Shown piece by piece: positions 1,485-43,914 of a stretch of 64,000 nt of DNA (within the stretch, counting starts at the first letter, position 1; every line of letters begins with the position of its first letter). The notes below the pieces were generated by a model that was not told the DNA's origin, did not search any database, and saw only the letters and a program-made list of their open reading frames with translations. The DNA is from Daphnia pulex (Eukaryota; Arthropoda; Branchiopoda; Diplostraca; Daphniidae). Location of the stretch: NCBI RefSeq assembly GCF_021134715.1, contig NC_060025.1:8494001-8558000 (forward strand), given 5' to 3'. The position numbers and the translations under genes were made by a program.

Positions 1485-1528
1485 AAATGAACATCACGAA
1501 GGAATTTCATTCGGGAAAATTAATTTAG

Positions 1529-2422
1529 TCAGTGGAGTTTACCGGGAATGTGGCAAGAGCAGGCTGATGGCAACTTGTAGATGTCGATGAAGATTCCCTT
1601 CTGGGGATCGCAGGGATCGAAGGAAAGCATCCGCTGGTAAACATATTTTTGCAGACATTTGCTGCCGAAACAAGGGGCCAAGGTGCGACAAGATGCACCG
1701 GGGAACAAACATTTTTCGACGCGTTGAGTCTGGGTGTATCCGGGCCAGGCGTTTTCTTGGACGATGACCCGCCATTCTCCATCGACATTCACTGCTCGGA
1801 GTGGGCGAGCATAAACAACGTCGCTAGGGCAGATGTATCCCTCGTCACCAGACCAGTGGCCCTTCTCGAAGAATTTGCCTTTGTAGTTGGAGTAGTCGAA
1901 GTGCGCCTCAGCCAAAGAGGTCAGTCCATCGACCAAATTATCGGCCGACTGATCAGCAACATCGGCGTATTTCTTCAGCACCAACGGGTCGTAATCGATG
2001 GCGTACTGAATCGAAATCAATCAGACAAAAGTAAATGAAACAGTTTGAGAAGTGTATCAAAGTGAGAACTAAACTTAATACCTTGACCTCTTTCTCCGGA
2101 TATTCGGTGTCTTTCAGACAAAAAGTTTCAGTGCCGGTTTTGGCGCAGGTTGGTGCCTTTCGCGGGTTGCAGTAATTGTTGTACTTCTGGCCATAAGCTG
2201 CTGGATAGGCTGGTTTGGGATATTGTTGGGGCTCAGCAGCTGCCTCTGGATGGGCAAACACTCCAGCAAGCAAAATGGCACTGATGCATAACTGTAAATA
2301 TTTAAAAATTGTGAAATTATGATGACGTTAAAGAGGTTGATCAACAATCGATTGTAGAATAAATTAATCGCACTATTATTTCCATTTGCGATAAAGCTAT
2401 AACTTACTATAACAGTTTTCAT
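1529..2422 (-). CDS. spz: Spätzle-like secreted cystine-knot protein A, copy 1
   Basis: Three coding exons on the minus strand: 2422-2408, 2291-2082 and 2005-1529, giving 233 residues with all phases consistent. The start opens a signal peptide (MKTVILCISAILLAGVFA). A proline/tyrosine-rich pro-region follows (about residues 20-130), with cysteines near the exon 2-3 junction. The C-terminal Spätzle knot spans about 134-229: ICPSD, RPLRAVNVDGEWRVIVQ, YTQTQRVEKC, GSKCLQK, DIYKLPSACSCHIPG. Eight cysteines lie in this domain. The family supplies secreted dimeric ligands for Toll receptors, activated by proteolysis; I could not pick the cleavage site by eye. A TATA box and TCAGT initiator precede it. 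It differs from copy A2 by only a few residues, so duplication is recent or homogenised. Which Spätzle subfamily it belongs to is not settled. Confidence 0.9.
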
Positions 2423-3000
2423 TTCGATTGTGCTTTTCGTGAATGCAACTGAGTGAATTAACAAGCTGTACTGTTGATTATCAGTTGCAAACTGATGCAG
2501 ATTAGTCAAAGGACGAGGGTTTTTTATACGTCTCCACCAATTCAGTGAAAAATGCACTCCATTCAGACGGTCGAGTTTACTTATTTCGACTTATTTTCAG
2601 TTTCACTCGTGGTAAACCTATTCTCACCTGAACGAACTCACTTTCCTTTATGTTTCCAATGGAAGCTGCAATTGTGATTGAAAGCAACTCAATTACCACA
2701 ACAGCTCTACAGCAACTAGTTGATTACGCGTCAAAGTTATTACCACACTAAATAATTTGAATTACTCCATCAGCATTGCATAAGGTAACATTTAAATTGG
2801 TTTAGGCAAATTGCGGTTCACCTCATTTCTACCTATCGCGCGTAAATAGAGATGGTCAGCCAATCAGAACGGAAAGGGTGCAACATACGCAGCAGTGAAG
2901 ACAAAACTTGTATATAAAGCTTTCCTGGTTTGTTTTTTGAATCAGTCGTATTCTGAGCAGATAACTGAAACAAATAAAATATCTAACACTGGCTAACAGA
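2423..3000. promoter_or_regulatory. Divergent promoter region between Spätzle A1 and B1
   Basis: Toward gene A (minus strand) a GTATAAAAAA box lies at 2530-2521, with a TCAGTT initiator around 2495-2490, about 33 bp away. Toward gene B (plus strand) a TATATAAAG box lies at 2911-2919 with TCAGTC at 2942-2947, again about 33 bp away. These are textbook arthropod TATA plus initiator spacings. The same arrangement is found between the right-hand copies, so the promoters were duplicated with the genes. No NF-kappaB-type site was identified with confidence. Confidence 0.75.
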
Positions 3001-3729
3001 ATGTCCATCAAATTGACTGTAAGTTGTTTTGTTTTTGATTGTTTTTAATCGAGAAATATTATTCGGGTGTTAATATTTTCTGAAAAATAGAAACCTACGA
3101 ATGATTAATCTTTTTTAAAAACCCAGATTATTGCTTCGCTGATGGTGATTGGCGTTTTCTCCGATCCTGAGCCCAGCCACTACAAAGCTCCTCCTCCCTA
3201 CGGTGCCCAGCCCAAGTACGAATACGTCGAGATTCCGCACTGCGCCAAAAACACGACCAAGTCCTGGTGCCTGGAAGACTCTGAATATCCCCAACACGAA
3301 GTGCAACAAGCCCTGGACCAACACTACCAGGCCGTCGTGGCTTTCTACAAGGACAAACTGGCCAACACTGAGAATTCAGTCGACGAATTGGACAAGTTAA
3401 ACGACGAGATTTACCTTTGCCCGAGTTCCACCGATTACGTCCGTCCTTTCCGGGCCATCAACGTCGACGGCAAGTGGCGGACCATCGTCAACGGCGTCGA
3501 GTCTTACGGCATCAAGTACACGCAAACCGCTCGAATTGAAGAATGCGACGTGGTCGTGGGAACCACCTGCCCCTTGGTCCCGTCCTGCTACGAGTCCAAG
3601 TGCGTCCAGAAAAATATTTTCCATCGCTTCTTGGTCTACAACCCAAAAGACTACACTTTCCCTTTCGCCATTGAAAAATTCAAGTTGCCCGGATCGTGCG
3701 GATGCGTCGTTGGAGCTTTTCACCTTTAA
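3001..3729 (+). CDS. spz: Spätzle-like secreted cystine-knot protein B, copy 1
   Basis: Two coding exons, 3001-3018 and 3127-3729, give 206 residues. Exon 1 encodes only MSIKLT; the signal peptide continues in exon 2 (IIASLMVIGVFS). A pro-region with two cysteines (PHCAKNT, SWCLED) leads to the Spätzle domain from about residue 104: LCPSS, RPFRAINVDGKWRTIVNG, YTQTARIEEC, ESKCVQK, EKFKLPGSCGCVVG. Compared with protein A, the DPC cysteine is replaced (NPKD), leaving seven cysteines in the domain. A and B are clear paralogues arranged head to head. Expected role: a Toll-receptor ligand of innate immunity or development, by family. A separate function from A is plausible given the altered knot, but this is inference. 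Confidence 0.9.
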
Positions 3730-3798
3730 AGTTCAAATTATGACTACATAAATAACACAATAAATAATATGGATTTTTGCTACATAATTTCGACTCCA

Positions 3799-6700
3799 CT
3801 ACTAACAATTGATATGCGCGGCATTTTAAACATTTAAAAAAATAACCTGAGATAAATTCGTTGGGGATGTCAGATCTGTTATCATCGTAAGACGTGGGAC
3901 ATTCTCGTACGCCGTAGTACTCGAACGTTGGCTACTGCTGTAATAGACCGGTAAGAGAGATGACAAACCATGAACGAAAAAGCCTGTTTAATTTTTTTGA
4001 ACGACATTAAATACCCTTTAACTAACTCGGCAGAGGAGATGCGCTAAGAGGTTTAATGTTGATAACGACGCTAAAGGCTGGCGAGAGAACAGTTGACACC
4101 TTGTCTCATCAATATTTCGAGCCTTCATTCTATCATTTCTCCTCTGTTTTCCTTTTTGAAAATAAGCAATAGGGAAAATCGTTACAAAAGCACTGCGAGA
4201 GCCAGAGAATAAAATTCTGGTCTGTTCTGGTCGTTTATAAGAACGTATAGGGGAAAAAACGAACAAGATATAATCTCCCATACAAAAGAGCAACAAGTTA
4301 TAGGTCTAATATAGCCCCGTTTTTATCCCTGTATATCTTTTCTTTTAGTTGTTGAGGGATAGTCGAGGAGGGCAACACACCTATGGGACATATTGCGTGC
4401 CGTCCGGTTGTTATTATCAAAATCGGAATAAATTAGGTCAAAATAAGCCCTAAGTTAGGACTTACCGAAACGTTGTACTGGTGGTGGTGCAATACTCCAA
4501 TGGGATTCCAGGACTATACATTGTACAAGCAGAAAACAGTTGAGTACTGGAGGATGATTTCCAACTTCCGGGAAGATTGCGATCCGCTGGATTATTCCTT
4601 GGTGATTAAAAATTTGTAAAAATTGAAAAACGTTTAGTGTTAAAACAAAAATCGGGTATTAAACCTAAAGATATAAGTTAGTAGCACTATCTGTAATAAC
4701 ACATACAAAATTACTTTTTACTCCAAATAAGGATTACTTGAAAAAAATAATTCTAAATCATAGCGCAAAACATTTAAGACAAAATCTAACGAATCGTTGT
4801 AAAACCGTTTAACAAGCTTGAGCATATGCAACGCAGTCGCTAGTAAGTAGTAAAAGAGGGCGAGCTTATTCTTACGTGTCACAGAACAAATTGTGTTGTT
4901 TTTCGTATTGGTTAGCGAAACTTCAATCAATACGATATTCAAGTCAATACGAAACCAGAAAAGCAGCGTTTTCTAACGTTTATGTTTAGGCTAATATTGT
5001 CGAATGCTCTAACTCCATCAAAACATGCTGCCACCTGTCAGTCCATCACAATAAACGCTTAGAGTAATCAATAGTTTCCTGTAATCATAGTAGTTCACCT
5101 GAGATGACTATATGGAGCAAGAATAATCTTACCAAACAATAGGAATAAAAATGCCATAAAAAAACTTGATAATAGTTGACTGTGGTCTGACTGGCAAAAT
5201 TTTCGATCATCAAAAGCCGAAGTTTAACTAGGTCATACCTTTAAATGACGCGTCCAGCATCAGCAGCAGTAATCCAACTCAAGTAGCTCCTTAATCATGT
5301 TGGAGTAGTAGCTAGCTTTTATTCTCCATCTTTTCTAGATGTTCCATACAAGCAAGCCTGCTAATCCAGCTGACCATCCTTCAACTTGATTTCAAACATG
5401 ACTGCCCCAACATGGCTGTCCCAAATTGCTGAGTCGATGGAAAATAGTAAGTCCAGTTTTCCCATGTCGAACGGAAATCTGCTCTTGTCGCATTCACGTT
5501 TGGCTAATCGACTAAACCTGTAGAATAAATAAATGAATCAAACCAATTCGTAATGTTAACATTTTGCCTTTCTACATTATTAATAAAAATAAAAAATAAA
5601 CGATGACCAGGAGAGTTGATCGCGCCGCCACATTATTTTCTCTAAAGATATGGATGGGCACCTGCCTAAATTTCTCAACCTAATCCAGCAGGAAGACTGC
5701 ATTCTGCAAATTTGACGAGAAATGTGCATCCTATTGTTCTGAGCCACTGCACAGTGTGGAAAAAGCAAATTTGTTTCATTAGCTATGGCTACTCAACTTC
5801 GGACTTAGCACTATCCCACATGTATGAGTTAAGATATACCTTCTGTAGGGTGTTTGAAGCTTGGGGTAATTGACTTGACTTCTGACAGTATAGAACTCAT
5901 TCATTGACCTGTCGAGTAGAAATCTCGGCTGTTAAGAAAAAGATTTCGTAAAATCAGAATAATTCTATTAAAAGGAAGAACTTACTTTATTTGGCTTTAA
6001 TAGCAGCTTGTTCATGACTTCTCCCGAGTCAGGAATCTCAAAGAATTATATGAACCTCCAAATTTTGGATTGTCAATCTCAAATTCCTTTGTCTTTCCAA
6101 GTGGATGTTTTTCCCTCCATCTATGATTCAAGTTGAAAAAATGAATGGTCAATTAGATATTTTGATTGTGATGTGATCATGTGATAGCAATTATTCACTC
6201 TATCTCAACTACTTACTTTACATCACAATGCAATTTACACAAACGCACAACGAATTAATGCTGAACCAGACAATGAATCGAAAGTTCGAAACGGCAATAG
6301 ACTCTATGACAAAGCGTCTTGTGTTACTTCCAATTTTTTCCATAACCGTCCTAAACGACAAGTTGCTTTACTTAATAATTCATGGAAAGGCTTTCCACAT
6401 GGAATTTATTCCCACTATGGATATCGTGTCGATATTATTATAAACCTTTTTTTAAACTATTCTCTATTAACAATTGACACGACTCGCATGGTTGATGCTT
6501 CAATGAACCAATGAAATGAACTTAACTGAACCTACAGCTTATACTTAACTATTAGGCCGGCGAGCTACACACGTTTTCCATCTCCCATTTCCAACTGAAG
6601 CAAAGGGCGCATCTAGCGGTGACATTTCCAACTACATGCTAAAATGCAACAACAATGAGTGCGAATAATCAGGTTGAAAATTCAAACACAAAAATATTAC

Positions 6701-7093
6701 GAAACAAATTAACATTTTTTTTTGTCAAGAAAAATAAAACAACTTCCCTTCTCAAGTTCCCATGAGTGGCGATGTGGTGGGTTTCGTTTTGCATCGCCGA
6801 ATTTCACAATTGGTTCCCCTCGGAATTTCGATTGGCTTTTAAAAAAAAAAAAGAAAAGAAACAATTAACAATTTTCCCGATTTTTATTTGCTTTCTTATT
6901 GATTCCATTTTGTTATATCATCAGCTGCCCAAGAACCATAAAAAAGAAGAGATGGCGCCACGACACACCAGGGGGAGCTCAACTACTCTTTCGTTCTTCT
7001 TCTTCTTCTTCTTCTCGTTTTTATCGGGCGCGGTGGAGTTTGATGCGACGCGCAGCACAAAATCCCGCGGGATCTACGAGGCCAAAAACGAAG
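3799..7093. other. Non-coding or unassigned stretch between Spätzle B1 and the 7.1-kb repeat
   Basis: No recognisable gene. One small plus-strand frame opens after a stop near 4433; from the ATG at 4500 it encodes 39 residues ending at 4619, with a YWWW motif just upstream of the Met. It could be a stray exon, but no splice partner is evident. A (TTC)n run sits at 6994-7014. The corresponding interval on the right side (40115-41317) is unrelated and only 1.2 kb, so the two duplication arms differ here by insertion or deletion. Confidence 0.4.
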
Positions 7094-7375
7094 TCAAATA
7101 GTCTGCATATGTAAATCTGATATTGTCGACCGAATGTATTATTTAATGTTGCCATGAAATAAAATAAACATCCAGGCTTGCAAGTTGCTAAAAGACAAGG
7201 CTAAAAGTAAACGAAAAACAAGTTTGTTATTACTCATAGTCCCTTGCAGCTTCGTGATATATTTTTACCCGAAATTGGCGTCCTAATTTAAAGCGATGCT
7301 TTCATCTTCACTTTGTACCAAGCAAACCCGCCCATCTCCGTTCATGTTATTCCGAGATGCTCCCTTTTTGCTCGT
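7094..7375. repeat. Second inverted-duplication block, left copy
   Basis: About 280 bp matches 39820-40114 in reverse orientation. Shared landmarks include ATTGTCGACCGAATGTATT, CATCCAGGCTTGCAAGTT, CATAGTCCCTTGCAGCTTCG and CATCTCCGTTCATG. The right copy carries short extra segments. No coding potential stands out. Its order relative to the Spätzle pair is mirrored on the right, which places it in the same large inverted structure. Confidence 0.85.
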
Positions 7376-8319: not shown

Positions 8320-11300
8320 TCAACAGCGCTGAGGTGGTGGTAAGGTGATCTTATCACCCCGCAATTCACTCAAAATACCCGTCAAAGTTTCCAGACCGAA
8401 AAGGTATCCGTTGTCGGGTCCCCAGTGGACCCGTTCGTCCAGTCCCAGGTAACCGGAGAAAGTTGTGTGGGCGAAATCGATCATGCGGACATCGACGCAG
8501 TCCGACCAGCAGTTGTTGTCCAGCTTGCTGCTGCTGGCAGCATCCAGCAGCACTTGTTCTTTGTCCTCATCCATCACTCGCCGTTTCTTCTGCGTTTGGC
8601 TTCCGCCGGCTTCTTCCGTAAACTCTTCGGTCCGGCTGACTTCCAAGACGGGCGTCAATTCGCCCTCATCTTCGCCGGCTGGGCTCATCATTCCGTACTG
8701 GGCGTTGCGCTCCAACTCCAGCGGCCGGCAGAGCCTTTGCTGTTCCATGTCACTTTCGCTATCTTCCTCGCTGTCCATGTACATGGCGGCCGTTCGCTTC
8801 ATCATGGCCGTCTTTTTGATGCTGCTGCCCAGCTGATTGACAGCAGCGGCTGATGATGAGAAGACGCCGCTGTCCGTGCTGTCGGTCGAATTGTCACATT
8901 CGTAGCCCGTCGCACTTCCCGATTGCCTCAAAAGTTTCTTGAGACGGAGGCCGGTTTGGTATCCACTGATACTCGTCCAGCTGCAATGTTCGTTGGTGCT
9001 GCTGGACGACGAAGAGTTTTGATCCATCATGAAACATTCCAGTCCGCTGTCCACCGACTGGGCTGGGCTCGTGCTGAAAGACTGGGCGTCACAGCTGTCC
9101 GTCAAGTAGCAATCGCTCGACGTGTCTGTGATGGACAGCGAGTCGAAATCCAGTTGATTCCTTGGCTGCTGGAGTCGATGAGGGACGGCCACATGTTTCA
9201 GTCTGGGTATCTGGGCATCCGAGCTGGACCTGGTCGGCTTGTAACCAGCAGCACTTTGATGAGCAGCAGCCGTGACGAGCTTCCGGTGTTGGTAATCATC
9301 GGCGTCGCAAATTCTTTCCAGTTCGCAATCCGAGTTGGATCGCCGGCCGGCACCGCCAACAACAACCCCAGGACTGAGAAAATGGAAATCCGGGCTGGAG
9401 AAATATTCGCTACTTTCGTCGCAACCTTCGTAGACGATCAACAGGGAACTGCGTAATAAGCGTGAGAGAAATGATTTCATGATAGAAAAAAATTGGTTCC
9501 GTGCCATCACAATTTGATTTCAATTTTCTATATACCTAGAATAGAAGCGGAACGTCTCCTGTTGTTCGACGGCCTTGCGGAGGAGCCTCAACCGCTCGAG
9601 AATGGCCTCGATGATTCCATCGCGTCGGGCTCCGCCACTGGCGAAGAACTGGACCAGCGCCCTGCGAAGTCCGTCAGCGTCCAGCCGTCGGCCAAAATAT
9701 TTGTCCCGACTGACGAACTTGTCCGACGTCGCCTCGTACACCTTTTAGAAACAAACAAAAAGTTAAAAGTTGAATTATTATTTGACTGGATGGAAATAGA
9801 ATTGTTCAACTAAAATAGGATATCGGCCAATGCCAAACAACAGCAGGATGTTGTCAGTTATTATCCGCTGCGGATAAATAAGCCAAGTGCCTGAGGGCTT
9901 GCAGATATTCACAGTGTCTTTTTAAAAGTGGAGCCCAAAAATAAACATAAACACGTATAGCGTTTAGCACTTTTAACTTATACATTTCGACCTAAATAAT
10001 ACACACCTTCATGCCACAGAGACGGAGTCCGAGGGAGGCGGATGTGCTGGCTGCGCACTTGGCCATCTGCCGGGTGCGTTTCTCGGCGGAAGCGTCGTCG
10101 CCGTGCTGCCTGGTGCCCATCTTCAAGTCCAGCACGCATGGACGCTCGAACTTGAAAGCGGACGCCACATTTTCCAGCATCATGAAAACTGTATGATGGA
10201 TAAACGAGAGTCGACCAATTAAAATTGATTCGACACTCAATTAGACGCAAACTGGAATTTTAATTGGTTATTCTATTTAGTCTAGAATCTGAGCTTTAAC
10301 TAATTCGGTAATTAGTCCAGGGTTCGGTTTTCTCTAAAGGTTTTCCTCTTGCAAGACGGCCAGCAGGAAATCGGACACGGATATTTAATGATACAATATA
10401 CCCTCCAGACTTATCCATTCTATTAACGTGCTTGTCTGAATAGGATAGAGTCCCTGGATATTTCCTGGATAGACTCATTACACATTGAGCCGAGAGAGCA
10501 ATAAATCATTTAGTTGTGTTCCATCAGTTACATAAGAACCTTTTACTGGGCAATGGACTGGATAAAAACTCACTCCATCTTTTTTATTCTCTTGTAATTG
10601 TTGCCCTGGACAACTGGGACAGGGGTCAATCGAGCCGGGGGGAGGTGGCCAATAACGGTCACATTCAATCAGGAGGCCCGGTCAGCAGGTATAATTGTCC
10701 AGCCCAAAGGGCGCCCATCAATTTCTCGCATTTCCTTTCGCAAATACTCGACAATAAGAACGTCAGCATGACCTGGACATCCTTGGAAATGACATAAACG
10801 TCCCCATCCTTTTCAATGGATAATAACCTCATCCCGTTGCGCCCCAACGGATTCAGGACGTAAATTACATTTAGGCTGACGTGACCTTGTTTTATGTCTA
10901 CACTATAAGGAGCCTATCGTTCATCCGTCCAGCCAATCAGTCGTCGAAAATGTCCGACGGCCATATATACACACAAATTCACGCAATGTGCATACATACA
11001 GAAGAGAGGGGGGATGAGAGAAAGTTTGGCGAATGGCCCAAATCAGTCATTGGCTTTTGGGTCTTTTTTATCTTTTCTCGACGCGCGGAGATTATTTTCG
11101 TTTGAACGTGCAGAGCTAAAAGAGGAGAGCTGCTGTTGGTCTGCTGGGGTACACGAGAGCGCTGGATCAGAGCGGGAATTCAATGGAATGCAGCGTGCTC
11201 CCAGAGAGAGAGAGAGAGATGTATAACTGGCGACTATTCCATATGGGTACGAAAATAAACCGACGAGACGATATAGCCTAAATAAAAATTCCGACTCACA

Positions 11301-12417: not shown

Positions 12418-12506
12418 TGCGCGTTTTGTTATCGATCCCGGTGGTGGTGGTGGTCGCTGATCAAGAAATTCCTCGTTTCACCCAACCGCATTCCAACATC
12501 CGCCAA

Positions 12507-18059: not shown

Positions 18060-19670
18060 TAGTGAACATCATCGGCACCGTCTAAGTGACTAGAGAAATG
18101 GAAGATTTGTAAATGGATTTCGTGTAATTAACGTAGGGTAAACGACGAATCTCGTGACTTGTTGCAAATCGTCGTTCGAGAGTTATTCCTTTATTAAATC
18201 CGAAGTTTATTCTTGAAAATTTATAGAATTGTTATCCTGGGCTCCTGATGATTATGGTAATTGCCATTGACCTTATCATATGGGGAACGCAAACAAATTG
18301 CCATTTCAAAGCGAGTTAGAATGAATTCTCTCGTTTGCTTAATGATTTGTTTGATATTCAGGAAATCACTTAAAAATACTGATGTCCGGATCAGAATATC
18401 AATACTTAATTGAAAGCGTAAACCGATGGCGTTGAGAGCGTCTTTATAACGATAGAACGCATCTTAATATTATGTAATTTTCGAAAAAATACAGTCATCA
18501 ACTGTGGTAAATCTTAATATGTAAAATGTTCACTTTTAAATTTTTTAGGCTTACATAATATTCACTGAAATATTCATAGAAGTTGACAAAATATAGGGCA
18601 CTCAACAGAATTTAAAATACCGAAACTGTCACATCTCTCCCATTGGAGAATCATTTCAAATAGACCGCAATGTTTTATTTAATTTAATTAAACTGCCTTT
18701 CTCTGAGAAAATAATATTAAGTTTCATTCTTCACTCTCGAATCGTTTTTTCGAATAATCGCGGCGAATAATCAGGCGCCTTATAAATTTCATTTAAATGA
18801 ACTGTATCTGCACTGTCTTAGTGATTAGAATAATGCGTGATTGGTATTGGAATTCGTGTTACCCACGAAGTTTAAACGTCAAGAAGCGCGACACTGTTAA
18901 CCATTCGGAATCCGATATAAGCATTCTTTCAATTAGAGCCTAAGGTTATTATTAAAAGATTAACATCTTGAGTTCCGATACCATCCAATTCCTAACTAAG
19001 CTTTAGTCATGAGAGCTTCGGAAAATGGTTGTATTGAAGTAATATTATCGGATTACGACACTTGTATAAACCAAGATACGGGTCTCGATGTTATTACTAT
19101 CAGAAGAACTCAAGGATGCGGAATTAGAGTCCGAAACTGTAAATAACTGATATCCGAATCAGAATATCAATTAACTAATACGTGCGTATGCTAGTGGCGT
19201 TGATAGCAAATCTTTAATATCTCAACTCTTCGTTATAAGTTGAAACGACGACAAACTGCAGTCATCAGCTGTGGTAAATCTTAAGACGTAAAATGCTCAA
19301 TCGTACATTTTAAGGCCGACATTAAATTCGCTTAAATATTCAATAAAGTCGACAAATTATAGAGTGTTGGCTCGGAGTATTCAACGTCATTATTCTCTCG
19401 AATCGTTTTTCGTAAAATCGCGGCAGTTTTATTTCGATGGAAACCTCTCCGTCTCAACGCTAGATGGCTCCAAAATGAGTAAGAAGCGGGACTTTTGAAA
19501 TTTCTAGCAAAGTTTGATTCAAGTTGGTGCTCACTGCTCAGTGACAATGATTTATTGTGAAAAATGAATGATATCTCCATCACAAAACGGACGTCGTTTT
19601 GAAATGTTGTATGTATGCCCTGATGAGAGTGGAAGAATCATTTTCCCATTTTTAAATACCGTCACAAAGA
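18060..19670. repeat. Repeat mosaic, two adjacent plus-orientation copies
   Basis: Two related units follow each other (about 18060-18760 and 18795-19670). Both contain a CTGT(C)TAAGTGA-type block, a TCAGAATATCAAT block, an ATTCA(T/A)-GAAGT-GACAAA block and a CTCTCGAATCGTTTTT end. The second unit continues with AACGCTAGATGGCTCC and AAGAAGCGGGACTTTTGAAA. It is repeated as a whole, in the same orientation, at 23945-24815. No transposase or reverse transcriptase frame is visible; small frames inside just follow the repeat. Confidence 0.7.
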
Positions 19671-21129
19671 AAGAAACTTCCGGGGTGGACCTACGGACTT
19701 TTTTATGCGGGCAGATCTCCACGTGCTGTACCGTGAATTTCTGCAATTTGTCGGATTCAAATCGAGGGGGTTGGGAATAAGAAAATTCGCAGTAAAAACG
19801 GCGGTCATCTTTTTTCCCCCATCTTATAAAGGGAGGAAGCAGGAAGGGTAAGCTTTTTTTCTCTTGGCGGAAAAGGGCGCCTACAATAACAACCGGAGGT
19901 CATTTTTAACCATTTCTTTGAGCTTTTTTTTGATAATGTTAGAAAAAAATCAATTCGATGGATATTATGAGCTACTTTAGTATTTTTTTTACGTGAACTG
20001 TGTTTGTGAACAATAGTATCATTCCGTGAGCTTTACTTTTCTTTGCACCAGTTAATTCTCTATGTTACACAAGCGCTCGATGTATTCATTGACACTAATG
20101 ATATAAATTTTTGTGTTACTATTTTAGAAGCCACATTTTTTATTTTAACATACGGGCTGCTCATCGATGGATCATCTATCTATTAGGCATAATGTGTCAT
20201 TATGAATGCCTAATTTAATAGAGGTCTTTCTGGGAAATGGAGTAACCCATCTCTTTAAGGAAACGTTCACACTACTTGAGCAGCAATGTGATTTATTACA
20301 ACAAAACTAATAGAATATCAATGATATTTAATAATAGCCACGGGTGGCGAATGAAATGAAGATCTATCAGTCGCGTATACACTAATAGGAAGTTAATCAA
20401 GAAACAAATTTCCGTTTTACAAAAACGTCAAAGTTAATATCAGAGTTCATTTATTACTTGATCGATAAATAGCAACAATTGCGTTGAAAAGCCCATACAG
20501 TCTGGCAAGTTTATTAATTATGCCGATTGTAAATTCCCAGACCAACGTCAATTGTTAAATGAAAGCCGTTCGATCGATCATTATATTCGCGATCAAAATT
20601 AACACGATCTCACGTTCAAATCGTTGAGATGCGTCTAACGATTCCACAGTTTCGAACCTACTACGAGTCTAAGTTTAAAATTTGACAATCTACGCAACCA
20701 GGATATTTACGTTGGTAATAAAAGCCATCAAAAAGAGATATGAAGGTATTAAGTCGGTAATACTCGAATCGCACCACATCTCGCACGATAACCCATTGAC
20801 ACCGTTTAGCATTTATACGTATCGACGCTCCGTCTACTTTCAGGTCGACGGACGACGTAACATAAAGACTTGGCAAAAAGCCTAGCAAGAATTCTTTTAC
20901 GACATCCTAATAGTTTCGCCTGTGTTATATCGAGTGCTTCTGTGCATTTACAACACCCAGTCTCATATATATATACTATGTGCAGATAGAGATACTTTTC
21001 AAATAAAAAGGTATTCGACGTTTATTGATCCCGAATCTCCCAATCGAAATGAAACGGGAAAGTTATCACAATTCCCGACGGCTTTTTCTCGTGTTTCGGT
21101 TTTGTGTAGTATAGTAGTATATAGAAGAA
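19671..21129. other. Non-coding stretch within the repeat mosaic
   Basis: AT-rich, with no credible gene and no repeat partner found by eye within this window. Short frames (for example on both strands at 20661-20888) overlap each other and lack family signals. Confidence 0.4.
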
Positions 21130-21470
21130 GCAATGGGACTAGCCTATTTTACCATTCACGAGAAATCGAACGCGATATTAAGATCGATTTCCGAACAAGA
21201 GTTTCTCCGCCATAGTCTGGAACGGTTCGTGAAGGTTAGCGAGTCCATGTCGGCCGACGAACGAACGAGGGGCTCGTCTGCTGTTCTTTCTTTCTTAGAA
21301 TCCACATCACGCCATCATTTATAATACACATGATTTCTCCACTTCAAAAGGCCTGGCAGTGGTGGGGAGGTCTGCGTCTACGTCTTGTTGCTGCGCAAAC
21401 ACGTTCTTCGTGGAAATTGCGAAATCGATCTTGACCAGGAAAAACCATTCATTATATTTTAAATAATGCC
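21130..21470. repeat. Inverted-repeat partner of 22325-22645
   Basis: Reverse complementary to 22325-22645 over about 320 bp. Shared landmarks are AAGGCCTGGCAGTGGTGGGG, ATGTCGGCCGACGAACGAACG, GGAACGGTTCGTG and ACGAGAAATCGAACGCGAT. Together with its partner it would form a large hairpin with an ~850-bp loop. A minus-strand frame of 63 codons at 21495-21686 lies in the loop but has no recognisable features. Confidence 0.75.
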
Positions 21471-22082
21471 AACAAGTGAGCAAATACGACGAAGTTATTG
21501 ATCTCTTGATACGAAACTGCCTAGCGATGCCCGAGGAAAGAAAAATTGGGCAGAATAAATCAAATGGAATAGCGCGGATTTCACGTTATCGACGTAAAAT
21601 TTGACCAAAGTTGCCGTCAACTCCCCATCAGAAAAATTGCGCATTCTTGACGGCATGCCTTCTTGACTACGAGGGACGCTATCCATTGATTACTTCCATG
21701 GATTGAGTGAACTTTATAATATAACCCATTCACAATAAGTAGATCTGCAAATAAATTTGCCACAAGTGAAACACCACCCGATTAAAATGTGCATGTTTGT
21801 CTCACAATCATCACTCACTTATCACAGATTTCAAGATTTAAATACAGTCATTTTTATTCGTTTTGTAAAGAATGAATTACCCTAAGCGACAGTTGTTTAC
21901 CATCAGCCCATCTATTTCCAGAAGAATTTCTGGGTTTACGGTCTTCTTTAGGGAAATTCTTACTACATCCATAACACTAATTTTACATGAAAATATATAC
22001 TTGTCTTAAGGTAATATCAGCTGTAGCGATAAATTGTTCTTGTCCGTAATAAAATTCTGGATATGTAATCTTGTTTATATCT

Positions 22083-23900
22083 ATGCGTCATTCAATCAAA
22101 TACGCACAAGTTAGTAAGATTAAAGTTCACGAAAAAAAAATTGTCATTACATTTCCTGTATACCAGCTTTGTTTTTTAGCTTCTAATCATTTCTCAGTTC
22201 ATTCGTCAAACAGCGTGCATTGTGCTGCATTTTTTAAAATTTGAGTTGCATTTTTTTTTCAAATCGCGCCAGTTTTGTTTTTAACTATGCATCATTCGTT
22301 TAACGACGCACAAGTCAGTAAGATTATACAATGAATGGTTTTTCTGGTCAAGATCAATTTCGCAATTTCCACGAAGTACGAGGTTGTGCAACAACCAGAC
22401 GTATACAGTAGACACAGACCTCCCCACCACTGCCAGGCCTTTCGAAGTGGGGCAATCATGTGCATTATAAATGATGGCGTGAAACGAATTCAAAGAAAGA
22501 AACAAGAAACAACAGCAGACGAGCCCCTCGTTCGTTCGTCGGCCGACATGGGCTCGCTAACCTGCACGAACCGTTCCAGCAGACCATGGCGGAGAAACTC
22601 TTGTTCGAAAAACGATCTAAAAATCGCGTTCGATTTCTCGTGAATAAAAAAAAATAAAAATAGAAACTGTCGTGATTTTTCAAAATAAACGATTCGAGAG
22701 AATAATGAAGAAGGAAACTTAAAAATTATTATCTCAGAGGAGCTCCAGACTTTCAGTCTCTAGGAAATGAAATTTTTATTTCTCAAATCGGAGAGATGGG
22801 ACGGTTTCGGTATTTTAAATTATGTGGGATACTGCGAGCCAACTCCCTATGATTTGTAAACTTTCATGAATATTTCCGCGAATTTATTGTCGGCCTTAGA
22901 AATTTACGAGTGAACGTATTACGTCTTCAGTATGACCACAACTGAGGAATGTAGGTTTCGTAGGTTACATAATTTAACGATGTATTCTTTCGTCAAGATA
23001 CGCTCTTAACGCCACTGGTATGCGCACGTTATGGATAATTGATATTCTGATTCGGAAATCAGTCATTAGGCTTGCTTCCCTGGAATCTATCAAAGAGCTG
23101 ACATCCTCTAGAATTTTTAGAGATTCTATGAGACGCACAGTCAATTGGAGAAATATTTAAATCTGTTGCTGTGTGCCTGTGTACACAATAGCATGATTTG
23201 AATGTTATCAGGGAAACATCTGTAAATTCAATTATGTAAACTACGGCTATTATAAAGGAATAATTTACGAACGCCGAGTGATAAAACTTCTAACGAGTCT
23301 CTGCGTTTAAACTTCGTGGTTTCCACGAATCCTAATACAAATCACGCATTTCTCTAGTCACAAAGACAGTGCCGATACAGTTCATTTTTAAAGAAACACA
23401 ACTTATATGTTATATGGTAAACAAAGAGCGGATGTACTTGTCGGAATATCCACGACTGAAACAAAAATTTAGAAAATGCAGTTACGCACCCTGTTCGACG
23501 AATAAACTGAGAAATAATTAGAAGCTAAAAACAGGGGTGTTGGCTCGCAGTATTCGACAGAATTAAAACTACCGAAAATGTCCCATCGAGCCCATCTAAG
23601 ATATAAAATTATATAAAGACTGGAAACCCTCTGAAATAACATCGAATTTCCTTCTTCATTATTCTCTCGAATCGTTAATTTCGAAAAATCACGGCAATTT
23701 TCTTCTTTTAATCTTTGCGTCATTCGTTCAACGACGCACAAGTCAGTAAGATTAAAGTTCACGAAAAATATATTTTAAATTATATAATGCTACCCATGTC
23801 TTGTATATTAGCTCTGTTTCTAATTATTTCTCAGTTCATTCGTCAAACTCAAAAAGCGTGCATTGCTGCATTTTTTTAAAATTTTTGGATTCAATCATGG
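22083..23900. repeat. Repeat mosaic, inverted copies and short direct repeat
   Basis: Three parts can be distinguished. A direct repeat of about 170 bp occurs at 22083-22250 and 23717-23890, with CACAAGT-AGTAAGATTAAAG and TTTCTCAGTTCATTCGTCAAA. The segment 22325-22645 is the inverse of 21130-21470. The segment 22690-23395 is a minus-orientation relative of the 18.06-19.4 kb units, with TTGATATTCTGATTCGGA and TGCGTTTAAACTTCGTGG. No gene is supported. Confidence 0.65.
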
Positions 23901-23944
23901 ATATCTAGACAATCCGGTCCTTGCATACTATATATACTGTATTT

Positions 23945-24815
23945 CTGAATAATGAATTGCATCAACACTGTCTTAGTGACAAGATTGGTGCGTGATTGGT
24001 ATCAGGAGTCGAGTAAACCACGTAGTTTAAACGCAGAGTCTCTTAACTCGTTTTACCAATCGGCATTCAAAAGTTATACCTTTTAAATAGCCGAAGTTAA
24101 TTTGATTTGAATAAGGCGGATGTTACCCTGCAACCCAAATTATTTCCCACTACTGAGAACTCCTCAATAGACGAAACCCAACCCACCATATCAACATGGT
24201 TTTTAACCATGCGATCACATCACGACCACCGCAATGCGATCGACATCTTATTGATATGAGTGGGATCATTAGTTGAGGGTAACAACACTTAAATTAACTG
24301 ATGTCCGAATCAGAATATCAATTATCCATTACGTGCATATACTAGCGGCGTAAAGAGCGTGTCTGTAACGATAGAACATATCGTTATATAACGTCACCTA
24401 CGAAAGCTACACTTGTCAACAATGGAAAAAATTAAGACGCATAATGTTCACACAAACATTTTAAGGTCAACATTAGATTCACTGAAATATTCATGAAAAT
24501 TGACAAATTAAAGGGTGTTGGCTCGCAGTATTCCACGTCATTATCCTCTCCAATCGTTTTTTTCGAATAGACGCGCAATTTTATTTTGGAAGATAACCCC
24601 TCCGTCCCAACGCTAGATGGCTCCAAAAAGTGTAAGAAGCGGGACTTTTGAAATGTCTAGCACAGTTTATTCAGGTTGGTGCTCGGTGACGATACTTAAT
24701 TATGAAAAATGATCTCCATCACAAAACGGGCGTCGTTTTGAAATGTTGAAATACATGCCCTGATGAGAGTGGAAAAATCATTTTCTCATTTTAAAATACT
24801 GTCACAAGAATTGAT
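23945..24815. repeat. Repeat mosaic, direct copy of 18795-19670
   Basis: About 0.87 kb aligns end to end with 18795-19670. It begins near CACTGTCTTAGTGA and runs through TCCGAATCAGAATATCAATTA and GGTGTTGGCTCG-AGTATT, then AACGCTAGATGGCTCC, ending near ATGCCCTGATGAGAGTGGAA. Divergence is moderate, with small indels throughout, so this is older than the Spätzle duplication. Confidence 0.75.
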
Positions 24816-28357: not shown

Positions 28358-31300
28358 TTAGGATGAAAGGCACATGGCATTTTTCTGATGAGGAGGACAA
28401 CAACCGTATCCTTGCAATTCGCTCAAAATGTCCGTCAGGTTTTCAAGACCGAGCAGGTATCCGTTGTCGGGTCCCCAGTGGACCCGTTCGTCCAGTCCCA
28501 GGTAACCGGAGAAAGTTGTGTGGGCGAAATCGATCATGCGGACATCGACGCAGTCCGACCAGCAGTTGTTGTCCGGCTTGCTACTGCTGGCAGCAGCATC
28601 CAGCAGCACTTGTTCCTTGTCCTCATCCATCACTCGCCGTTTCTTCTGCGTTTGGCTTCCGCCGGCAGCGTCGCTAAACTCGTCGGTCCGGCTGACTTCC
28701 AAGACGGGCGTCAATTCGCCCTCATCTTCGCCGGGCGGCGATCCGGACAGGTCCGTGGGTTGTTGCTGCTGGCCGTCGTCCAGATGATGAGCCCACGTCA
28801 TGTCAAATTCTCCGTCCTCCTCGCTGTCCGTCGTGTAACTGATGGCGGCCGATCGCTTCATCATGGTCGATTGTTTCAGCTGCTGTTTGACCAGCTGGGC
28901 CACGGCGGATGAGGAAAAGACTCCGCTGTCGGTGCTGTCCGTCGAGTTGTCACACTCGTAATTGGCTGCCGGAGTCTTGGCCAGTTGCTTGGAACGACCG
29001 CCGGCCTGGTGGTGCTGGCCGCCCGACCAGTTATTGCAGCACTCGTTGGTGGTGCTGCTGGACGAAACGGAACTCTGATCCATGTAGCATTCCAGTCCGG
29101 AATCCACCGATTGGGGACTGGTGCTGAACGACTGGGTCTCACCGCAGCTGTCCGTCAGGTAATAGGCGGAGTCGCTCGACGAGTCGGTGATGGACACTTG
29201 ATTGGGATGGCCATGCAGACGGCCCGGAATGGTCATCAATTCCTTCAGTCGCGGAATCTGGGCGTCAGAGATGGATCGGGCTGGCTTGTAGCAACTCTGG
29301 CCGTCATCGTCCAGGTTCTCCAGTTCGCAGTCCGAGTTGGATCGTCGACTTCCGCCGGATTCGCTGCTGCCAAGGAAACGGAAATCCGGGCTGAGGAAGA
29401 ATTCGCAATTCTCGTCGCATCCTTCGTAAACGATCAACAGGGAACTAAAAAATCGCGGGAAAATTCAAATCATTAATTGTCCAGGTGTGTGAAATGCTGT
29501 CGCCATGGTTACACATACCTCGAATAGAATCGGAATGTATCCTGTTGTTCGATGGCTTTGCGGAGTAGCCTGAGACGCTCGAGGATGGCCCCGATGATTC
29601 CGGCCCTTCGGGCTCCGCCGCTGGCGAAAAACTGGACCAGGGCCTTGCGGAGTCCGTCAGCGTCCAGCCGACGGCCAAAATATTTGTCCTGGGTGACGAA
29701 CTTGTCCGACGTCGCTTCGTACACCTGGAAAAAAAACAATTGACACATTATTAGTGGCGGCTGGCGGGAGATTCAAAAATAGAATTGGCACTTTTCATCA
29801 CGGACACAATTCTCTTCCGGCGGCTTTTGTTTATTCTTAGACTCGACGTGATGATTGGCCGACTACCAAATGATATGGCCGCCAAGAAAGAAATGAATGA
29901 TCATTTCTCCCTGCGGGCTATTCTCTTCTTGCGCGGTTTAATACGGACAAACGGAATAACGGACACGAGCATAAATCTCAACTCTCCCGCCGTGGCGAAA
30001 TTTTCAAAATCCAAAATGGCGCAACAGGGAAATTCAACGTTTAGCATTACACACACTCCCCACAGCCCAAACGACGTCATAGTGGAGATGACGAACAACA
30101 CTAGAAATTTGCATAAGATGCATTTTTTTAAGTATTATTATTACCTTCATGCCGCAGAGACGGAGTCCGAGCGAGGCGGAAGTGCTGGCTGCGCACTTGG
30201 CCATCTGCCGGGTGCGTTTCTCGGCGGAGGCGTCGTCACCGTGCTGCCTGGTGCCCATCTTCAAGTCCAGCACGCACGGGCGCTCGAACTTGGACGCCGA
30301 CGCCACATTTTCCAGCATCATGAAAACTAAAAAGAAATGGAAGGAATAATTTACAATCGCGACCTTCAAATAATGAAATTCTTTATTTTTTAAATCATTT
30401 GAATTTCGCGGGCAAATGAAATGGAGGCCAAGAAAAAAGAGGAAACGGGAAACCGTTGCGGGAATTGTACGTGATCGCATTTCACCCATGTGTTGTTCTC
30501 AGGTGACGACGGTTGAGCTCCTAATCGTTTGATGGGCGTCACGTGCTGCGCCAATTCATTAGCTGCGCATTATTACGCGGATATGTAGCCTACTGCGAGA
30601 GGCTGAAATTAATTAGATAACCTTGGGTGGGGTGTTGGCAAATGCGAACCAAGGATATGTCGTAATAAAATTTCTGTCGTTCAATATCTTTTGTTTTTAG
30701 CCTATTCCTTTGATGGCAAGGACTTCACTTTAAATTTCTCACTTCCTTCCTGAATTTGATTTGAAAATAAAAGACCCGTGACTTTCATGAATATTAAAAT
30801 AACCTGATAACGCACAATATAAGGCCTCTGGGGGATTTTTGTCCAACTTATTTGATGTCATTTGAAGAAGAGTGCGACATTTTGACACATCGCTCATCAT
30901 CTGGTGAACTCGTTGCCGATGGCGGGGTGTGAAACGATGGCGGGAAAATACGAAAATTCGAAACTCTCAGACAAATTTACGCAACGACCAGCAGACTTGC
31001 ACTAGTTGTGGATGAAACACACGCGCGCATCAAAAATATCATCTGGCGAAGAGCCCAACTATTTCTCCATTACGGCTAAAGTGGAATAAGAAGAGGAGAG
31101 ATCTGGCACACACGTACACACACCGGGTGAAATGAACCGGAGCGGCAAAACAAACCAGCGGGTGGACCCCGAAATAGACCGTATAATAGACAGAGAGCTA
31201 GAGACTAGGCTACGGACTGTGTGTGTGTGTACTCACATTGAGATGATCCATCAGTGTAGGTGTGGGCCGGATGATAGGAAATGGCTTCATGGCCGGCCAG

Positions 31301-39819: not shown

Positions 39820-40114
39820 CTGACGGAGCATCTCGGAATAACAGCATGAACGGAGATGGGCGGAGTAGGCTAGTTTGCTTGGTACAAGCGAAGATGAAAG
39901 CATCGCTTTCAAATAGGACGCCAATTTCGGGTAAAAATATACCACGAAGCTGCAAGGGACTATGAGTAATAACAGCCTTGTTTTTCGTTTACTTTTAGGC
40001 TTAATTGTCTTTTTAGTAACTTGCAAGCCTGGATGTTTATTTTATTTCATGGCACAACATTAAATAATACATTCGGTCGACAATATCATATTTTCATATG
40101 CATCATATTTGACT
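39820..40114. repeat. Second inverted-duplication block, right copy
   Basis: Reverse complement of 7094-7375, with short extra segments (for example an added AATTAAGC near 40000 and an extra block near 39868). It confirms that the inverted duplication originally reached beyond the Spätzle pair. Confidence 0.85.
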
Positions 40115-40458
40115 AAAAATGTTATTCAACCATATTTATAGATTTAACCAGATTTAACTGCTTTAAAAAAATCGAATGAGTGTTTGAAACATTTTATTAG
40201 CAACAAGTAGAATTGGCAACACCGGTTCCAATCTGATACAAGTTCGTCTGCTGACCGCAGCTTCCGGCCGCCAAAAATCACGTCGGAGTGGCCATCGATT
40301 CGAAGTCTACTTTGCCTGTGTTGGTAGGGCTTTTATTTCATCGATACACATTTTATAATTTATGAAGAAGCTCATCAATTGTAGTTGAAAGATTAAACTT
40401 AGAATTGCTACCAGTGTAGTGAGCATTTGCAACACAATTTCGGGCAACTTATGTAGAA

Positions 40459-41094
40459 ATGAGCCATGGTTCTTTCACCTGCATTGGATTTTCACAATCT
40501 TTCCATACTGAAAGAGAGACTCTACAGGTAAATTTTTCCTTGTGGACCTTTGCCTGTTCAATGTTACACCATGTCACACAATCCCTTAGCTAAAAAAATG
40601 CCACAATATTAAAAAAAACTGGAAGTCTAGGCTTCCCAATAACGGTGTGACTGTTGCAGTCGTTTCTACTTGATGAAGAATCCAGTGAATAGCCAGTGTC
40701 TGATGAAGGGGACCCAAGCAAGGTACACCAACACTAGTCTATACTGAAACTTGACATTAACAACTGAATTTTTCATCTTATTAAAGATTATCCCGAAAGA
40801 AATGGAGAAACATAGACCCAAGTCAACAGTGAAAAGGAATGTCCCAGATATTTACACCCCTGATATTGCTACGCCATCAAAACAAAACGTTTATCAGCAT
40901 TCACTTATACTGGAGTAAATATCTATATTTTACTTGGAATTCCCATTAAAAGTGAAACATATTTATCCTTTTTTCGTTGCCTTTTTAGGAACAATGTGTT
41001 GATATTTTACTACAACTGCATCTGAATTTGAAAGAAGTTCTCCACGCGGACGACCGTTCGACCGAGAAGTCATCGTCGAAGATTTTACACAAAG
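40459..41094 (+). pseudogene. 5' exons of an unrecognised plus-strand gene, apparently broken
   Basis: Four exons fit together with matching phases and good splice sites: 40459-40527 (start ATG, MSHGSFTCIGFSQSFH), 40660-40722, 40787-40888 and 40989-41094. The second exon has an in-frame TAG in an otherwise acidic reading frame (LLDEESSE, stop, PVSDEGDPSK). The third encodes EKHRPKSTVKRNVPDIYTP, the fourth EQCVDILLQLHLNLKEVLH. No family is recognised. The frame is open at the 41094 donor, but the next 3 kb contain the inverted Spätzle pair. More exon-like sequence on the same strand appears at 43.9-44.5 kb. The simplest reading is a gene interrupted by the Spätzle-bearing segment and now decaying; a real TAG-bypassing splice form is not excluded. 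Confidence 0.45.
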
Positions 41095-41386
41095 GTATGA
41101 ACATTTCTTTTCAATCCCATTGCATGACCCCTGTTGATTTTAGTGGTAGTGCACACGTTACATGCGAAACGAGAATCTCTTCTCATTGTTAGACGATTCT
41201 GATAATTACGAAAATTCGTGCAATCGTCGAATCTTATAAAACATTGACATGTCTTACGTCTGAACTGTTAGGGCCTTTGCATTTTATCTACAAAACAAAC
41301 GCCCTAAAAAAATTATTTGGAGTCGAAATTATGTAGCAAAAATCCATATTCTTTATTGTGATATTTATGTAGTCATAATTTAAACT

Positions 41387-42120
41387 TTAAAGGTGAAAAG
41401 CTCCAACGACGCATCCGCACGATCCGGGCAACTTGAATTTTTCAATGGCGAAAGGGAAGGTGTAGTCTTTTGGGTTGTAGACCAAGAAGCGATGGAAAAT
41501 ATTTTTCTGGACGCACTTGGACTCGTAGCAGGACGGGACCAAGGGGCAGGTGGTGCCCACGACCACGTCGCATTCTTCAATTCGAGCAGTTTGCGTGTAC
41601 TTGATGCCGTAAGACTCGACGCCGTTGACGATGGTCCGCCACTTGCCGTCGACGTTGATGGCCCGGAAAGGACGGACGTAATCGGTGGAACTCGGGCAAA
41701 GGTAAACCTCGTCGTTCAACTTGTCCAGTCCGTCGACTGAATTCTCAGTGTTGGCCAGTTTGTCCTTGTAGAAAGCTACGACGGCTTGGTAGTGTTGGTC
41801 CAGGGCTTGTTGCACTTCGTGTTGGGGATATTCAGAGTCTTCCAGGCACCAGGACTTGGTCGTGTTTTTGGCGCAGTGCGGAATCTCGACGTATTCGTAC
41901 TTTGGCTGGGCACCGTAGGGAGGAGGAGCTTTATAGTGGCTGGGCTCAGGATCGGAGAAAACGCCAATCACTATCAGCGAAGCGATAATCTGGGTTTTTA
42001 AAAAAGATTAATCATTCGTAGGCGTTCTTTTTACGGAAAACATTGACATACGAATAATATTTCTCTATTAAAAACAATCAGAAACAAAACCAAACAACTT
42101 ACAGCCAATTTGATGGACAT
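41387..42120 (-). CDS. spz: Spätzle-like secreted cystine-knot protein B, copy 2
   Basis: Two coding exons on the minus strand, 42120-42103 and 41989-41387, encode 206 residues. It is almost identical to B1: the visible changes are conservative (T to A at the end of exon 1, M to I in the signal peptide, E to G and I to V before the first domain cysteine). The frame is intact with the signal peptide, the Spätzle core (RPFRAINVDGKWRTIVNG, YTQTARIEEC, ESKCVQK, KLPGSCGCVVG) and the same missing cysteine (NPKD). A TATAAAAAG box at 42210-42202 and a TCAGTC initiator at 42179-42174 lie upstream. This is expected to be a functional duplicate of B1. Confidence 0.9.
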
Positions 42121-42699
42121 TCTGTTAACCAGTGTTAAATATTTTATTTGTTTCAGTTATCTGCTTTGAACACGACTGATTCAAAAAACAAACCAGGCAA
42201 ACTTTTTATACAAATTGTGTCTTCATTGCTGCGTATGTTGCACCCTTTCCGTTCTGATTGGCTGACCATCTCTATTTACGCGCGATAGGTAGAAATGAGG
42301 TGAACCGCAATTTACCTAAACCAATTTTATTTTATAATTAAATCCGTTATGCAATGCTGATGGAGTAATTCAAATTATTTAGTGTGGAAATAAATTTGAC
42401 GCGAAATCAACTAATTGTAGAGTTGTTGTGGTAATTGAGTTTCTTTCAATGACAATTGCAGCTTCCATTCGAAATCTAAAGGAAAGTGAGTTCGTTCAGG
42501 TGAGAATAGGTTTACCACGAGTGAAACTGAAATTAAGTAAACTCGACCGTCTGAATGCAATTGAGGGCATTTTTCACTGAATTGGTGGAGACGTATAAAA
42601 AACCCTCGTCCTTTGACTAATCTGCATCAGTTTGCAACTGACAATCAACAGTACAGCTTGTTAATTCGCACAGTTGCGTTCACGAAAAGCACAATCGAA
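42121..42699. promoter_or_regulatory. Divergent promoter region between Spätzle B2 and A2
   Basis: Both promoters keep their TATA and initiator. For B2 (minus) these are TATAAAAAG at 42210-42202 and TCAGTC at 42179-42174. For A2 (plus) they are TATAAAAAA at 42594-42602 and TCAGTT at 42627-42632. Spacing is about 33-35 bp in each case. The middle part aligns with the left-hand intergenic region but carries small indels. Confidence 0.75.
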
Positions 42700-43591
42700 A
42701 TGAAAACTGTTATAGTAAGTAATAGTTTAATCGCAAACAAAACCATTTGGGATTCATTTATTCTGTAATCGAATGTTGATGAACCTCTTTAACGTCATCC
42801 TAATTTCACCATTTTTTAACATTTACAGTTATGCATCTGTGCCATCTTGCTTGCTGGAGTGTTTGCCGATCCAGAGGCAGCTGCTGAGCCCCAGCAATAT
42901 CCCAAACCAGCCTATCCAGCAGCTTATGGCCAGAAGTACAACAATTACTGCAACCCGCGAAAGGCACCAACCTGCGCCAAAACCGGCACTGAAACTTTTT
43001 GTCTGAAAGACACCGAATATCCGGAGAAAGAGGTCAAGGTATTAAGTTTAGTTCTCACTTTGATTCACTTCTCAAACTGTTTCATTTACTTTTGTCTTAT
43101 TGATTTCGACTCAGTACGCCATCGAATACGACCCGTTGGTGCTGAAGAAATACGCAGATGTTGCCGATCAGTCGGCCGATAATTTGGTCGATGGACTGAC
43201 CTCTTTGGCTGAGGCGCACTTCGACTACTCCAACTACAAAGGGAAATTCTTCGAGAAGGGCCACTGGTCTGGTGACGAGGGATACATCTGCCCTAGCGAC
43301 GTCGTTTATGCTCGCCCACTCCGAGCAGTGAATGTCGATGGAGAATGGCGGGTCATCGTCCAAGAAAACGCCTGGCCCGGATACACCCAGACTCAACGCG
43401 TCGAAACTTGTTTGTTCCCCGGTGCATCTTGTCGCACCTTGGCCCCTTGTTTCGGCAGCAAATGTCTGCAAAAATTTGTTTACCAGCGGATGCTTTCCTT
43501 CGATCCCTGCGATCCCCAGAAGGGAATCTTCATCGACATCTACAAGTTGCCATCAGCCTGCTCTTGCCACATTCCCGGTAAACTCCACTGA
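42700..43591 (+). CDS. spz: Spätzle-like secreted cystine-knot protein A, copy 2
   Basis: Three coding exons, 42700-42714, 42829-43038 and 43115-43591, encode 233 residues with exon lengths identical to A1 (15, 210 and 477 nt). Visible differences from A1 include S to C and H to D around the signal peptide, D to E after the second intron, K to T before LFPGASC and Y to F in CLQKFVYQ. All knot cysteines and the DIYKLPSACSCHIPG end are kept. Intron 2 is nearly identical to that of A1, pointing to recent duplication or gene conversion. The expected role is the same as A1, a secreted Toll-type ligand. Confidence 0.9.
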
Positions 43592-43914
43592 CTAAATTAA
43601 TTTTTCCAAATGAAATTCCATCGTGATGTTCATTTAATTTTAAACTGTCATGTGGACCTTACGATGATAACTTAACTAACACTTTTCTTAAAATAACATA
43701 ACTTGAATCTATCAATTTGAAATTCTGCTCTTGTATTTCATTTGGTTGAAATGTGAAATCTGAAGAATATTATTACCAAATCATACAGAGAAATTTCAGA
43801 ATAAAAATGGATAAGATTGGGCTTCCACAAAAGAAAACTTTTTAAATATTTTGTCGTTGAAATTGAATTGAAAGAAATAATTTGCCTATTGTTAGAGGAA
43901 TTCCAATCTTCAGC

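Follow-up and report, generated by a model that had tools for sequence, protein, structure and literature searches.

Why does one stretch of the Daphnia pulex genome hold the same divergent pair of Spätzle-domain genes twice over, as mirror images, and what might two such proteins be doing if they are made side by side? The stretch in question, hereafter the window, is a segment of 64,000 nucleotides (C9:8494001-8558000, from a genome of 133.2 Mb on 13 contigs) that carries two genes facing away from each other, here called A1 and B1, together with an inverted copy of both, A2 and B2. The original prediction saw in this arrangement a doubling of the dose of two Toll ligands. That description proves too small, as the A/B pair is one of 22 in the genome. 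Tentatively, and with rather less than even confidence, we suggest from sequence evidence that A and B may be co-made, secreted subunits of a disulfide-linked (and possibly A-B) dimer, acting at the cuticle rather than in protease-triggered Toll signalling.

Comparison of the window with itself sets 1481-3798 against 43639-41318 on opposite strands, with 94.35% identity over 2,338 aligned bases (96 mismatches and 8 gap openings), and the predicted mirror-image copy is thereby borne out. Also upheld are the divergent pairing of two Spätzle-domain genes, the intactness of all four genes, which spliced alignment finds open in both arms, and exon lengths of 15/210/477 nt for A and 18/603 nt for B (stop counted) in each arm. 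The exons, all placed by spliced alignment, and the cystine-knot domains, recognised with the Pfam profile PF16077, are as follows in window coordinates:

1529..2005, minus strand: A1 (Spz7-type) exon 3 with stop, cystine-knot domain
2082..2291, minus strand: A1 exon 2
2408..2422, minus strand: A1 exon 1, with its ATG at 2422
3001..3018, plus strand: B1 (Spz8-type) exon 1
3127..3729, plus strand: B1 exon 2 with stop, cystine-knot domain
41387..41989, minus strand: B2 exon 2 with stop (mirror copy)
42103..42120, minus strand: B2 exon 1
42700..42714, plus strand: A2 exon 1
42829..43038, plus strand: A2 exon 2
43115..43591, plus strand: A2 exon 3 with stop, cystine-knot domain

The Spaetzle profile, which scores A1 at 98.4 bits and B1 at 86.8 bits against a curated cut-off of 27 bits, has at least 59 exon matches across the genome; this is a lower bound, with 50 matches assigned to genes and the other nine scattered on contigs C1, C5, C9 and C10. 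The 50 assigned genes comprise 23 A, 23 B and four of a third type, and 22 A with 22 B form 22 pairs, every one of them divergent (22/22). ATG-to-ATG spacing ranges from 538 to 836 nt in the nine of 22 pairs for which both starts are modelled; in several of the divergent gene models a proper first exon with an ATG is missing, and the knot domain is unaffected by this. Distances at third codon positions correlate between A and B over the 22 pairs (Mantel r 0.82, with 0/2,000 permutations as high), most groups are common to the A tree and the B tree, and in six of the seven reciprocally closest pairs of two-gene modules the partners are inverted with respect to each other. The median pairwise ratio of nonsynonymous to synonymous divergence (dN/dS) is 0.21 for A (53 comparisons) and 0.17 for B (84 comparisons, some including the third-type gene C9:9082052), and on these ratios selection on both A and B is purifying.

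All six knot cysteines are invariant in 23/23 A and 23/23 B. The alignment holds 11 invariant cysteine columns in 23/23 A, eight of them in the domain and three in the pro-region, and nine in 23/23 B, divided seven and two. An extra cysteine lies between knot cysteines III and IV in every A and B, five residues before knot cysteine IV; all 23 A have extra cysteines both there and between IV and V, and all 23 B in the III-IV interval only. These are the marks by which Wilson 2009 (PMC2772990) separated Spz7 (extra cysteines III-IV and IV-V) from Spz8 (III-IV only), and by cysteine pattern A is Spz7 and B is Spz8 in the sense of that paper. The expansion of Spz7 and Spz8 genes in Daphnia is already known from the same source, and our genes resemble its Dappu-Spz7 and Dappu-Spz8 in cysteine marks, in their multiple copies mostly on one scaffold, and in the order and spacing of the mirror pair; the difference is that genes are listed singly there. 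A term search of the main text of PMC2772990 and full-text literature searches, the latter with most subscription papers outside their coverage, turned up no mention of Spz7 and Spz8 as divergent pairs, which is no proof that the pairing is new.

The six knot cysteines and the domain as a whole align with Drosophila Spätzle C-106 (PDB 3e07, 4bv4), and the solved Drosophila Spätzle chains are matched with phmmer E values of 1.1e-5 (A) and 5.7e-5 (B) and a profile E value of 1e-9. In the profile alignment to C-106 the first cysteine of the CC pair is replaced, by alanine in 22 A, by threonine in one A and by serine in 23/23 B. A and B differ in this from canonical Spätzle (Spz1), whose dimer cysteine beside knot cysteine V, which we take to be Cys98, is missing in all 46. 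PMC9427763 calls the intermolecular cysteine Cys-94, and reports for Aedes Spz1C a second intermolecular disulfide via Cys-59, close to the place (residues 59-62) where Drosophila has an insertion; on that report Spz1C has an intermolecular cysteine in the same III-IV loop as the extra cysteine of A and B, a likeness by loop and not by alignment. Over the 35 residues that precede the knot, arginine is absent from 23/23 A and 22/23 B, the exception having its arginine at the far end, and A and B are without the arginine or furin-type cleavage site that canonical Spz1 has just before the knot. A Spätzle gene on C5, taken as a control, has both RVTR before its knot and the CC pair. In most of the close copies, N-terminal stretches are rich in proline and tyrosine.

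How, then, might such proteins work? The conserved cysteine totals are odd (11 in A, nine in B), and on that count each chain would be expected to make one interchain disulfide, for which the extra III-IV cysteine is the simplest candidate; if this cysteine does join chains, the conserved cysteines that remain would be even in number in both proteins. An A-B heterodimer is plausible because the pairing of A with B is constant. We propose that the shared spacer drives both genes together, such that A and B would be made at matched levels, and both proteins are predicted to be secreted. A role in or at the cuticle is suggested by the lack of arginine near the knot, by the proline- and tyrosine-rich N-termini and by reports of Spätzle-domain proteins in the cuticle of D. 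magna: PMC13322756 (citing Otte 2024) places proteins with a Spätzle-like domain among the top five classes of cuticle-associated protein in that species, and reports them enriched by gene set analysis at one stage of kairomone-treated D. pulex. At its fullest, the proposal would be that the 22 Spz7/Spz8 pairs make a covalent A-B heterodimer via the III-IV loop cysteine in place of the usual Spätzle dimer cysteine, each from a one-to-one two-way promoter, as an uncleaved cuticle component. The cytokine fold would then have become a structural material of two subunits, its genes multiplied by inverted duplication time and again; this complete version we regard as unlikely. Were the two partners obligate and cuticular, counts of crustacean 'Toll ligands' would mislead, a cytokine fold would have found a second use as structural material, and their 1:1 divergent arrangement would offer a simple handle for testing this, with a shared promoter and one heterodimer.

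The spacer on which this proposal leans has, in both arms, the TATA and TCAGT elements claimed for it, and all four predicted promoters carry the pair, with the first bases of the two elements 29-33 nt apart:

2423..3000, no strand: ATG-to-ATG spacer, 578 nt, putative two-way promoter region
2491..2528, minus strand: A1 core promoter, TATAAAAAA ... TCAGT, first bases 33 nt apart
2911..2946, plus strand: B1 core promoter, TATATAAA ... TCAGT
42175..42210, minus strand: B2 core promoter, TATAAAAA ... TCAGT
42594..42631, plus strand: A2 core promoter, TATAAAAAA ... TCAGT

On the A side, TATA/TCAGT recurs in 14/22 pairs, against 4.4 expected (relaxed pattern). The arrangement is like that of head-to-head pairs with two-way promoters, for which abstracts give a limit of 1 kb between starts: the genes lie on opposite strands in all 22 pairs, the predicted starts of the window pair are 447 bp apart, and in the nine pairs with both ATGs modelled the ATGs are less than 1 kb apart. 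Unlike such pairs, A and B are paralogous to each other, and the complete pair is present in 22 copies.

Several observations weigh against the proposal of a co-made, cuticular dimer. A crude count of cysteines after residue 30 gives 11 in only 18/23 A, and 9, 10 or 12 in the rest; the crude count varies because first exons of the divergent models are unreliable, and those exons may themselves hold further cysteines. An odd cysteine could also give homodimers. A second control Spätzle gene, on C1, is likewise without the CC pair or a furin-type motif (it has Arg-Lys five residues before the knot), so that both losses occur outside A and B too. AlphaFold models built from two-row alignments had mean predicted local distance difference test (pLDDT) scores of 39.5 and 31.0, which is low confidence and uninformative. 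TATA/TCAGT is found on the B side in just 5/22 pairs (strict) or 6/22 (relaxed; 4.2 expected), and a universal TATA/TCAGT promoter thus holds for the A side (14/22) and is not shown for the B side. The cuticle statement in PMC13322756 names no particular Spätzle proteins, and an earlier D. magna proteome (PMC4236883), with no mention of Spätzle or neurotrophin in its main text, is no help to the cuticle reading. Two genes are partnerless in the fetched DNA, one B (C9:9065744, plus strand) and one A (C9:9073946, plus strand); module 9056 groups with 8646 and 9079 in the A tree and with 9049 in the B tree; and three modules (C9:8020530, 8171287 and 8182342) stand 37-46% apart from nine related ones at third positions of A and 10-17% apart at those of B, suggesting greater homogenisation of B than of A among modules, by uneven conversion within the two-gene unit. 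Pairing could, moreover, persist through hitchhiking in segmental duplications.

This last point leads to an alternative that we hold to be quite possible, if short of probable, namely ordinary birth-and-death of a clustered family, in which segmental duplications carry both neighbours by chance (they take up about 2 kb together), the pairing signifies nothing more than a shared promoter, and A and B work independently. Daphnia commonly has large tandem gene families. The window module is matched at 90% or more in five places in the genome, including the window copy itself; apart from a copy in the left arm of a newer inverted repeat (described below), the others are at C9:8741067 (95%), on contig C12 (90%), and at the mirror copy, 8535318 (94%). 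In a tree of these five copies, those of the window and the left arm join (support 1.0), as do the 8741 and C12 copies (0.75), and the mirror copy stands separate. The 8741, C12 and 8535 copies are also alike outside the module (many pieces at 74-94%, some weaker), so the copied unit is larger than the pair; those close copies whose flanks we compared belong to longer duplicated segments, just as birth-and-death would have it. Set against this, 44/46 A and B genes retain a divergent partner even though the most distant module lineages are some 40-60% different at third positions, and there is strong constraint on both A and B.

We think it unlikely that A and B are amplified Toll ligands, an immune cytokine arsenal expanded under pathogen pressure. 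Expansions are typical of immune genes, and the Spätzle domain is present in A and B alike; PMC2772990, noting many expressed sequence tags (ESTs) from stressed animals, proposed immunity for Spz7 and Spz8 from these stress-derived ESTs. The domain, then, stands as first predicted, and it is the ligand role that becomes doubtful: an equivalent of the dimer cysteine occurs in 0/46, arginine near the knot is lacking in 45/46, and a median dN/dS of about 0.2 speaks of purifying selection rather than diversification. The table of PMC8296651 further sets 5 Toll against 48 Spätzle proteins in D. pulex, of which 35 enter its unique-sequence network, with most in a divergent group of their own.

When did the mirror copy arise? 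It had been put down to a very recent event, or to ongoing conversion between the arms, on the strength of 'near-identical introns'; the introns are in fact 83.3% (A intron 1), 90.7% (B intron) and 96.1% (A intron 2) identical from arm to arm, compared with 98.3% for A exon 3, 98.1% for A exon 2, 97.8% for B exon 2 and 94.2% for the spacer. On these figures neither the near-identity nor the recent date holds, and the mirror arms of the window are an old copy. Divergence at synonymous sites between them (dS) is 0.044 for A and 0.078 for B, and the silent runs that they share are of ordinary length (p 0.65 for A, 0.79 for B), so that recent origin and ongoing conversion are both rejected, by intron and silent-site divergence and by the silent-run tests.

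The recent duplication event is another one, an inverted repeat of about 12 kb that lies mostly outside the window. A1/B1 sits inside its right arm (8483485-8501084), the left arm occupies 8468568-8480997, and the gap at the centre is about 2.5 kb; without an insertion in the right arm, the arms give 12,218 aligned bases with 4 mismatches and gaps of 1, 2, 9 and 212. A further copy of the module is found at C9:8471852-8474167, 21 kb upstream, outside the window and on the other strand, with three differences from A1/B1 in 2.3 kb. The parts of these structures that reach into the window, and the flank of the mirror copy, are:

1..1475, no strand: right-hand end of an insertion of ~5.37 kb (C9:8490106-8495475) that carries inverted repeats and is missing from the left arm
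1476..7084, no strand: outer stretch of the ~12 kb repeat's right arm, 5,609 bases at 99.93%; left arm (C9:8468568-8480997) outside the window
43640..60783, no strand: A-side flank of the mirror copy, pieces of which match the A1/B1 flank C9:8482246-8490105 (left of the window) at 80-93%

With one inverted repeat nested in another, the locus is a natural case of recurrent inverted duplication. The limits of 1485-3800 first given for the duplicated segment are not its ends. On the A side, homology next to A1 is interrupted by the ~5.4 kb insertion, which ends at about window position 1475 and parts A1 from its original A-side flank; past the insertion the mirror copy still matches that flank, in pieces, at 83-91%, and farther pieces at 80-93%, from which we conclude that the old duplication exceeded 2.3 kb on this side. 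Some of the pieces within 43640..60783 are out of mirror order, and long stretches are unmatched. On the B side, within the 5.3 kb compared, the mirror copy has a single 291-base match to the window arm (88.7%), at a distance of about 3.3 kb in one arm versus 1.2 kb in the other. The insertion carries inverted repeats of 104 bp (8490130-8490233 and 8495306-8495409), comparison of its junctions with the left arm, where the site is empty, suggests that 4 bp of target (AATT) were duplicated, and no stop-to-stop frame within its first 3.9 kb is longer than 122 amino acids. We found no tandem repeats at the left edge of the window.

Could the mirror pair be an artefact of assembly, one arm being a fold-back or a duplicated haplotype? 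We consider this very improbable. Table 1 of PMC2772990 gives, for scaffold 9 of an earlier assembly, Spz7D at 986553-987770 and Spz8G at 988211-989048, then Spz8G at 1027151-1027987 and Spz7D at 1028429-1029516, and a further Spz8G at 1043641. We read this order as A2 B2 ... B1 A1 ... B0, a match of order and distance, with strands unprinted there; the inner distance of the mirror pair is 38.1 kb in that table and 37.7 kb here, and the distance to the last Spz8G fits only roughly (14 kb there, about 17.5 kb here without the insertion). Given that the arms differ at 96 sites and by gaps, and that the 2009 coordinates already show A-B...38 kb...B-A, the mirror pair is not a fold-back, and the B-side flanks differ as well. 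What lends the idea some colour is the ~12 kb repeat with its mere four mismatches in 12,218 bases, for which a duplicated haplotype would be possible; its arms nevertheless differ by the 5.4 kb insertion.

To the idea of the 2.3 kb module as a mobile cassette in its own right we give next to no credence, and we reject it: matches of the window module to the four other close copies do begin and end within about 10 bases of the same places, but the C12, 8741 and 8535 copies, when their flanks are compared mutually, match past both ends.

Conversion deserves separate mention beyond the window arms. When non-coding sites are included, A1/B1 is a patchwork, nearer the mirror copy in some windows of the comparison and the 8741 copy in others; the run tests among four copies give uncorrected p-values of 0.034 (window/mirror), 0.02 (window/8741), 0.011 (window/C12) and 0.013 (8741/C12), with 0.20 and 0.65 for the remaining two of the six comparisons, which amounts to weak evidence of old exchange among close copies. 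For the other copies the run test covered 36 comparisons per gene, using 9/23 A and 9/23 B, and strong shared runs appeared in A between 9056 and 9079 and in B between 8644 and 8018 (0/1,000 shuffles each); conversion is likely at both.

A few further observations concern the family and its surroundings. The third Spätzle type, which is related to A, lies at C9:9051238, 9052363, 9062043 and 9082052, within a cluster at 9.05-9.09 Mb, and in one of these genes several basic residues in a row precede the knot. The lone B at 9065744 and the lone A at 9073946 sit 8 kb from each other, which would fit a rearrangement that split or trimmed pairs. Beside the C12 copy, C12:6791001-6793025 is a near-perfect tandem repeat of about 684 bases.

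Inside the mirror pair, two inositol polyphosphate kinase-like genes (PF03770; window 8323-9519 and 28361-29464, both minus strand) form a direct duplication; they are 72.5% alike, yet nearby stretches of 186 and 301 bases are about 95% alike. Third-position GC content (0.60 in A, 0.66 in B) does not distinguish A and B from these two neighbours (0.64 and 0.70), and separates them from a single other frame (0.40). Window 18063-24807 is dense in diverged repeats, inverted as well as direct (69-87%), and another inverted repeat, with 1,028 bases at 100% within 1,078 at 98.7%, joins 54733-55810 to 61799-62874, 6 kb apart; a third copy of the 54733-55810 repeat (95%) lies outside the window at C9:8419142-8420198.

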